Shown: in pieces, positions 2,854 through 5,761 of the stretch | Numbering within the stretch: position 1 is the first letter of the stretch | Layout: each line of letters begins with the position of its first letter | DNA from: Rhizophlyctis rosea | Lineage: Eukaryota; Chytridiomycota; Chytridiomycetes; Rhizophlyctidales; Rhizophlyctidaceae | NCBI GenBank assembly: GCA_027596075.1 | Contig: JADGJC010000184.1 | Location: 1-64,000 of the forward strand | Length of the DNA: 64,000 nt | Direction: 5' to 3' | Notes under the pieces: model-generated | Told to the model about the DNA's origin: nothing | What the model saw: the letters and a program-made list of their open reading frames with translations, nothing else | The model's database searches: none | Made by a program: the position numbers and the translations under genes

Positions 2854-5761
2854 TCAATCATCCCCCTGCACATAATTACACACCCTCCAGAAGAACAATC
2901 CCGTCATGTTGCGCGGGAACGACATGGCGTCCTGCAGGTATTGCGGCAACTCCATCATGGCCGCATTGGCTCCCCCTGCGCCGGCGGTCGTGACCATCCC
3001 GCCGATTTTGGTGTCGCCGCCGCTGCTGCTGCCGGATGCCGAGGTGGACTGTCGTCCGGCGGGGACGTAGGTGTATTCGGTGGAGGCCGTGATGCGTTGT
3101 GGGATGTAGAGGTTGAAGTTCAGGACTAATTAGAGGAAAGAATTGGTGATGAGTGATTCTGGGCGGATGTCACAAATTACACGAAAAGACGCATTTACTC
3201 ACCCCCCTTCCTCCCCTTCATAACACACTTGTAAATCTCAATCGCCTCCTCCTCTTCCTCCGCCTTCGCCCCACCCTCCCCGCCGTCCCTCTCAACAACC
3301 TGCCGAGCATCCTCAACACCCTGCATAACGACCCCCGTCAACTCCTCATACATCCGGATCCGGCTCTCAAGCTGCCGCAAGTACTGCTCGCTCCCGACGG
3401 CGCTCGCGGACTCTTTCATCCGTTCTTGGAGGGCCGTGTATTGCGCGTGGAGGGAGGAGAATTGGTGGCGGGCTGAGTCGGCGTCTTGTTTGGTGGTTTT
3501 CACTGGGTGAGAGGAGGGGACGAGTAAGAAATACTGAAGACGTGTGGACGGAAAATTTTGATAGCAGGACTGACCTTGTTCTTCCCAAAGCTTGACATCG
3601 TCGTCGATCCTTCCGGCCTTCTTCTTCCACTCCTTGGCTTCGCTTTCAACCTCCGCGGCCTTCTTCTTCCACGCCTTGACCTTGTCTTCAAGCCCGCCGG
3701 CCTTCTTCTCCCACTCTTCAGCTTCCGTCTTGTACGACTGAGCCTGATCCTTCCATTCCCCCACCTCCGCCTCCAACTTCACAATTTTTGCGTCCAAGGC
3801 AGCGGTCTGTTGCTCCCACTGCTTAGCGGCATCCTCCTTCTCTTTCTTCGCCGCCGCCCGCTCCCTCGCTCGTTCCTTCTCCATGTCCGCCAATTTCTTC
3901 TTGCTGCCGTCCTCCTCGCGCACATTTTTCCCACCTCTTGCCGTATCACTCTCTTCCTCGCTGCCCCGCTGATCGCTTTTACTCTTCGCCTTGACTTCCT
4001 TCAACGTCAGCCTCAGATCCTCCGCGGCCTTCTCGGCCGTCTCCGCCCTCTTGGTTGCCGCTCGGGTGCCTTTCTCCGTCTCCTCAAGCTGCGCTTCCAG
4101 GCTTTCGTACTGCTCCCGGACATTGGTCAACTCTTCACGCGCGGATTCGACGTCCGTTTTCAATCTGGTGATCAGCTCTTGTTGTGCTGAAGGACACGGG
4201 TTTGAGTGACAAATGCATCCAAATATGTGAGGGAAGGCCACCAATGATGTACCTTTTTGGCTCTGTTCTATCGATTTCTTGTACGTTTCAAATCGTGTGT
4301 TCGCCTCGTCGATAGTCCGCGTTTTTAGCGCGTCGTATCGGGCCTGTAGGTCTTCCTTCTCCAAACGTAACTATTTCGAATAATCTTTTGTCAATGATAT
4401 TGAAATTGGTTACGATAGACGATGTGCCCCGGAAGCTTACCATCTCGTGATCATGTGCAGAAACAAAGCCTTGTGGGGCTTGAGAAGTCGATGCCATTTC
4501 ATCTCCGCTTTCGTTCTCCGCCGTGGGCGCCGAGTCCTTTGCTATCGACTTCCTTGTCTGCTTGGAGCCCCGTCCGCTTGGTGCACTTTGCTTGGCCGCG
4601 GGCTCGGGTGCAGGTTCAGGTTCGTCTTGCTGAGCTACATCGTCTGCCTCCGCGTGTGCCGCAATTTGGTCTTCTTCGGGCCCTTCTGCAGGTTTCGCCT
4701 TCTTGGTTGATCTTTGCTTGGTTGGGACGCTTTCTTTCCCCTTGCGTTGACGCTTCGCAGCGGGCGCTGTTGCAGGTACAACGTATAAGGGTGAGTAATA
4801 CTTGCAAAAAGAATAGTTCCAAGAATTACCATCGGTCGTTTCCTCATGTTCAGATTCCGCTGACGTGGTGTCTTTAGAACTGCCCTTTTGGTGCGATTTA
4901 GCTTGAGCTTTTGGTGGTGTGCGGTCTTCATCCGTCGTTGCTGATTGAGCGGCTATTGTGACACTGACATGATTAGCCTTGACATCATTATGAGAACATC
5001 TCCATCATCAACGATGAACAGCCTTCGGTGAGAGGGTTGAAGAACATACATTTGGATTTCCTCTTATGCACATTACCCACTCCTCCACTTGTCGCGGTGT
5101 CTGTCAAAAAGATGAATGTCAGTACCAAACATGCGAAGAGAGTATTTTGAAGACAGCCGTACCATTGGACGCCTCGTTGGGTGATGCGCTCTGACCCTGC
5201 ACCGCCCACCACTGATTAGGCGGATGACGGGTCCTTGAGGATCTCCCACCAACAGACTGCTCTTCTGCCGTAGTCGGTCCTGAAACAGCTTTTTTCGACC
5301 CAATCTCGTCCCCAGACTGCTTTGATTTTCCGCGCTTGCTGTTGGTCGATGATAGTCTGGATCTTCCCTTCCCTTTCGTTGATGCGGAGGACTCATTTAG
5401 TTGCTCGTCCACCCCTCCTTGGTGTTCTGTATCTTCTGCCTCCCCTTCGGAACTCTCAGACCGTTTCCGTTTGGGCTGCCGTTTGGCTTTGGGACCCGCA
5501 TTCGCTATTGGCAGGTCCTGACGTGCGTCACCACTCAACATGTCGAAGGAGTCTTCCGCTTCATACTCGGCAGGTAGACCCTTTGCTTTCTTTCGCTCAG
5601 CGGACGTCTCCTTTCCGTTTGCCCCTGCCTTTGACGGTGCCGCCTTTTTTGTGGTTGAGTTTGCTGCCTATCAAGTGCAAGTGACGATTTAGGCGCCAGC
5701 AGCGCCTGCATAATACATTTGACAATCATACCGATTTTGTGCCTTTCTTCGTCTGTGCCAT
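2854..5761 (-). CDS. Csm1/Pcs1-like monopolin (chromosome segregation) protein
   Basis: A multi-exon gene starting MAQTKKGTKS at 5761, with a 5' intron right after ten codons. The N-terminal half (about 5650-4440) is basic, Ser/Lys-rich and disordered. It carries a short motif RSSRTRHPPNQWW at about 5250-5200. A long coiled coil follows (about 4364-3200), rich in Glu/Lys heptads. The final exon (3128-2854) encodes a compact domain starting VLNFNLYIPQRI and including LPQYLQDAMSF and a Phe-rich GLFFWRV end. That order, coiled coil then a small globular C-terminal domain ending in an LP.YL..aisF segment, is the layout of Csm1/Pcs1 proteins. Those dimerise through the coil and cross-link kinetochore or rDNA partners through the globular head. 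Introns are short: gtaagcttccgg at 4440, and one ending ctgacag at about 5104. It is divergent from the alpha-actinin gene. Family assignment is from motif and layout, not a search. Confidence 0.72.

Follow-up and report, generated by a model that had tools for sequence, protein, structure and literature searches.

How monopolin holds on to kinetochores outside budding yeast is partly known. A gene of the chytrid Rhizophlyctis rosea raises the question of whether a monopolin subunit may grip centromeric chromatin by itself. The window analysed here is a stretch of 64,000 nucleotides (contig JADGJC010000184.1, positions 1 to 64,000), in which a sequence-only reading had described a monopolin homologue carrying a motif like those by which CENP-C binds nucleosomes. 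We examined the gene, the motif and its prospective partners in the source genome (44.1 Mb, 634 contigs). The gene and its parts are listed below, with positions counted in the window.

2854..5761, minus strand: Csm1/Pcs1-family gene, nine exons, 778 amino acids (exon model and Pfam).
4441..5761, minus strand: low-complexity tail rich in A, S, K and E, exons 1–5, residues 1–345 (composition).
5293..5382, minus strand: basic cluster, residues 106–135, net charge +7, upstream of the motif (candidate DNA contact).
5206..5244, minus strand: CENP-C-type motif RSSRTRHPPNQWW, residues 152–164 (comparison with solved CENP-C chains).
5050..5068, minus strand: basic patch HKRKSK at the end of exon 3, downstream of the motif (sequence).
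3348..4370, minus strand: predicted coiled coil, residues 346–640, about 295 residues (simple heptad count).
2908..3257, minus strand: Csm1 globular domain, residues 671–761, split by the intron at 3202–3126 (Pfam).

The gene is a predicted one, its exons lying at 5761–5732, 5667–5163, 5100–5050, 4952–4830, 4766–4441, 4370–4253, 4186–3575, 3502–3203 and 3125–2854; the eight introns, each 62–97 nt long and bounded by GT and AG, were picked by eye at such sites. In a Pfam scan of the 778-residue protein, PF12539 (Csm1/Pcs1) matched residues 671 to 761 with 34.5 bits against a curated cut-off of 22.6, covering profile positions 19–84 of 84. By this C-terminal domain, the predicted protein is a member of the Csm1/Pcs1 (monopolin) family, as the earlier reading had proposed. 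The same profile gave no match in the six-frame translation of the genome, a search that goes exon by exon and is not evidence of absence; the miss probably arises because an intron splits the Csm1 domain. A PDB search with the domain returned four chains at E values of 0.45–0.72, none of which is Csm1.

The predicted coiled coil contains no proline, and its a and d positions are hydrophobic in up to 8 of 8 cases per 28 residues (with alanine scored as hydrophobic), as befits a member of the family; a weaker heptad stretch lies at about residues 455–482. Within the coil, a 14-residue repeat places tryptophans at positions 529, 543, 557, 571 and 585 (3755–3585, minus strand), and tryptophans so evenly spaced look unusual for a coiled coil. 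Residues 1–345, 48% of which are A, S, K or E, are inferred to be disordered. A divergently transcribed neighbour runs from 6543 onwards on the plus strand and appears by eye to be alpha-actinin-like, with calponin-homology and spectrin-like sequence.

The motif lies in the tail of residues 1–345. The segment RSSRTRHPPNQWWAV is encoded by exon 2 at 5244–5200 on the minus strand, within the interval 5195–5255 where such a motif had been noted. The pattern had been written as RxSxRxxxPxxWW, which is one place off; the actual order is R152, S153, one residue, R155, four residues, P160, two residues, W163 and W164. The true spacing, RSxRxxxxPxxWW, contains the published core of the CENP-C central region, RxxxxPxxWW, the counterpart in the CENP-C motif being RxxxxPxxYW (Kral, PMC4830207, after Kato 2013). 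Residues R155, P160, W163 and W164 thus fit the RxxxxPxx[W/Y]W core exactly, and the arginine anchor, the proline and the tryptophan pair that had been likened to CENP-C do agree with it at the published spacing. By analogy, R155 would be the arginine anchor, and W163 and W164 the putative tail-binding pair.

The stretch combines traits of both human CENP-C sites, each of which contacts the nucleosome at the acidic patch and at the hydrophobic tail of CENP-A (PMC7475651). Its upstream half resembles the CENP-C motif (human VRRTKRTRLKPLEYW), sharing an R-S/T pair two to three places before the anchor, and its downstream half resembles the human central region (R522 ISRR P SD WW VV), sharing WW-x-V. 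The central region runs from R522 to W530 and W531, the same +8/+9 spacing as from R155 to W163 and W164, and the arginine, the proline at +5 and the aromatic pair at +8/+9 are common to both CENP-C sites and the present protein. By contrast, the RSSRTRHPPNQWW stretch lacks several residues of CENP-C motifs, namely the first arginine of the RR pair, the leucine next to the proline, and the R and E that follow the tryptophan; the extended CENP-C motif, with PL before and R-x-E after the aromatic pair, is replaced by PN and AVQ. The human central region likewise lacks PL and R-x-E.

Counting against a CENP-C-type anchor, a phmmer search of the PDB with the motif stretch found no CENP-C chain at E values up to 10 and returned one ribosomal protein (E 0.16); the sole match of the stretch in the genome was its own site. 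Scans of bacterial, archaeal and viral contigs found no relative, which is no surprise for a gene of fungal origin. When CENP-C motif peptides from human and yeast were used as queries, they matched nothing in the genome; since these queries miss even the RSSRTRHPPNQWW site, they prove little.

The strongest competitor to a nucleosome-binding site is a coincidental match in a fast-evolving, low-complexity tail, devoid of function, in a protein that, like its yeast counterparts, is brought to the kinetochore by Dsn1 and CENP-C alone. We weighed the match against several backgrounds. W163 and W164 are the only two tryptophans in residues 1–345, and 300,000 shuffles of this segment placed the two side by side 1,647 times, yielding 7 WW cores, 24 cores with any aromatic residue before the second tryptophan, and 2 full forms ([RK][ST]xRxxxxPxxWW). 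For a protein of 778 residues, independent draws of residues predict 7.7e-4 occurrences of the WW core and 1.3e-5 of the full form. A background sample of 200 kb, drawn from two contigs of this genome (234,816 residues in six frames), contained a single WW core (RTFPPPGWWW) and not one full form. By chance, about 6 WW cores would be expected in a proteome assumed to comprise 6 million residues, which leaves room for coincidence.

Position-specific scoring gave a similar picture. With a matrix built from four solved CENP-C motifs (columns 2–17), the stretch ranked third of 306,609 six-frame positions, two unrelated ones scoring above it, and it ranked second of 306,609 when the human central region was added. 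On the seven anchor columns, none of 318,918 background positions scored as high, despite a G for R at one of the seven. On columns 6–18, 22 of 325,076 unrelated positions scored as high as the stretch, whose score of 8.89 compares with 5.02 for the left-out human central region, a proven binder that 130 background positions match or exceed. When the profile was restricted to vertebrates, 4 of 306,602 positions scored as high, and the left-out yeast Mif2 reached 26.18 as against 11.43 for the stretch. Since the choice of the motif and of the seven columns (the latter from the known motif) was made with the stretch already in view, these figures flatter the match somewhat; a fair chance level is about 1e-5 per position and below 1% for the whole protein, before allowing for the free choice of motif. 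Taken as a pattern in sequence, the match is unlikely to have arisen by chance, and the family of the protein acts at kinetochores, a setting in which such a motif would make sense. We nevertheless give the functionless coincidence an appreciable probability, somewhat short of even.

The genome encodes a CENP-A-like histone, a likely partner (G000:C112:295499-296189), which matches PF00125 with 131.7 bits on an exon join made here. Its tail ends in RRIRGPWGGLG, which is hydrophobic and bears a tryptophan, compared with RRLRGERS at two H3-like loci (L008 and L013); its loop 1 is by eye several residues longer than that of H3, and a human CENP-A query matched the last 31 residues of the histone at 61%. 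These features bear on a second alternative, in which R155 and its basic flank would dock on the acidic patch of nucleosomes in general, with or without CENP-A, and the tryptophans would contact something else, such as a partner protein or DNA. Arginine anchors are common to many nucleosome binders (PMC5472775), so that one in a chromatin protein does not by itself confer CENP-A specificity; basic clusters lie on both sides of the motif, and the basic tail of Cryptococcus neoformans bridgin reportedly gives it unspecific binding to DNA and nucleosomes (PMC9252888). Against this reading stand the tryptophan pair, spaced exactly as in CENP-C, and the hydrophobic, tryptophan-bearing tail of the CENP-A-like histone in this genome, and we regard it as improbable. 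A point that counts against the docking proposal is the R522A mutant, which in human cells is reported to bind nucleosomes still, in a perturbed mode, and to localize (PMC5472775), so that the site must comprise more than its arginine.

The sequence-only reading had also asked whether CENP-C itself is present in the genome, and the reply is in two parts. An N-terminal part, fungal in type, is present at the extreme end of contig C602, where two stretches match Mif2_N (49.4 bits against a cut-off of 23.5); the gene was read as N-terminal exons only, and the contig ends there. The CENP-C motif and cupin of this CENP-C were not found in the genome searches, and the Pfam profiles CENP-C_C and CENP-N gave no match in an exon-by-exon search of the genome, which is not evidence of absence. 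That the 778-residue protein is CENP-C itself, or that its motif stands in for a lost CENP-C, can be dismissed, as its Pfam scan holds no Mif2_N or CENP-C_C at E values up to 1, the CENP-C N terminus is encoded elsewhere, on contig C602, and the genome thus has at least a part of CENP-C.

The Mif2_N module of this CENP-C is duplicated in tandem as adjoining exons, VTVKPNIKKDSLGNDDIEEFFTLPKKVTPA and VTVKSNIKKDSLGNDDVEDFFTTPKKVTPA, identical at 82 of 90 bases (L002, G000:C602 about 680-100, minus strand), and the predicted CENP-C may accordingly carry two Mis12-binding sites. Searches for CENP-T_C gave two weak matches below the cut-off (L043, C30:10363-10446; L044, C226:26105-26191), which may be other histone-fold proteins.

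A likely partner for the opposite end of the monopolin subunit is also encoded. Dsn1/MIS13 is present in the genome (132.4 bits). Plowman et al. describe the Dsn1-N motif bound by Csm1, on the Mis12 complex, as an acidic–FF–basic sequence (PMC6823300), and the candidate counterpart near the N terminus of the R. rosea protein, ESDRGFLHRPVNKKK, has one of the two aromatic residues that they report.

Over the alternatives above we favour, at even odds, the proposal that RSSRTRHPPNQWW docks this Csm1/Pcs1-family protein on CENP-A nucleosomes, a judgement drawn from sequence comparison. In such a complex, R155 would insert into the acidic patch of H2A/H2B, the W163–W164 pair would pack against the hydrophobic tail of CENP-A (the candidate tail being RRIRGPWGGLG), and the flanking basic clusters would hold nearby DNA. 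The parallel coiled coil of residues 346–640, up to about 44 nm long if continuous, would dimerize the protein and thereby give every clamp a pair of nucleosome anchors. The C-terminal heads would engage Dsn1 in the Mis12 complex in the manner of known Csm1 heads. Centromeric chromatin and the outer kinetochore would then be joined by a second bridge resembling CENP-C, which would also crosslink adjacent attachment units. Its plan would be that of CENP-C, in the form of a dimer that contacts chromatin through one end and the Mis12 complex through the other. More tentatively, and with less than even confidence, we suggest that monopolin in this fungal lineage acts as a second CENP-C, a dimeric bridge from CENP-A nucleosomes to the Mis12 complex that runs parallel to the CENP-C linkage and crosslinks neighbouring centromeric nucleosomes.

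If this proposal is correct, monopolin equipped with its own nucleosome anchor could connect chromatin and the outer kinetochore independently of CENP-C, and the anchor would provide a concrete mechanism for joining the several attachment units of one regional centromere. To our knowledge, two kinds of protein use a CENP-C-type motif, CENP-C and KNL2/M18BP1; monopolin would be the third.

A comparison with known systems places the protein between several kinetochore linkers. Like Saccharomyces cerevisiae Csm1 and Schizosaccharomyces pombe Pcs1, it has a Csm1 C-terminal domain behind a coiled coil, and it is distinguished by its 778 residues and long tail. The kinetochore contacts reported for these proteins are those of the head with Dsn1 (PMC6823300; review model in PMC7614391) and of Pcs1 with Cnp3/CENP-C (PMC3701701), and the available text of PMC6823300 and PMC3701701 describes no nucleosome motif of their own; Pcs1 is located mainly on the central core of S. 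pombe centromeres (PMC1931489). In the open-licence literature, as far as its text was accessible, a CENP-C motif in Csm1 or Pcs1 was not found, and where the motif and monopolin occur together, monopolin stands only in the reference lists; searches of that literature for Csm1 together with CENP-C and basidiomycete found nothing, and the words CENP-C, CenpC and basidiomycete are absent from the accessible main text of Plowman et al. (PMC6823300).

A precedent for the motif in a second centromere protein is KNL2/M18BP1 of plants, chicken and frog, with its CENPC-k motif, which in chicken binds CENP-A nucleosomes directly (PMC11879092, PMC4830207); the plant CENPC-k and CENPC motifs are reported to need basic, DNA-binding flanks for centromere targeting (PMC11879092). 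KNL2 differs in that it has a SANTA domain and helps to load CENP-A, whereas the present protein is a monopolin subunit. Bridgin is likewise a proposed second link between the outer kinetochore and centromeric chromatin, but it is an FHA-domain protein that uses an unspecific basic C-terminal tail (PMC9252888). CENP-C carries the same arginine, proline and aromatic pair, and what sets the present protein apart is its Csm1 domain together with the lack of any Mif2_N or CENP-C_C match.
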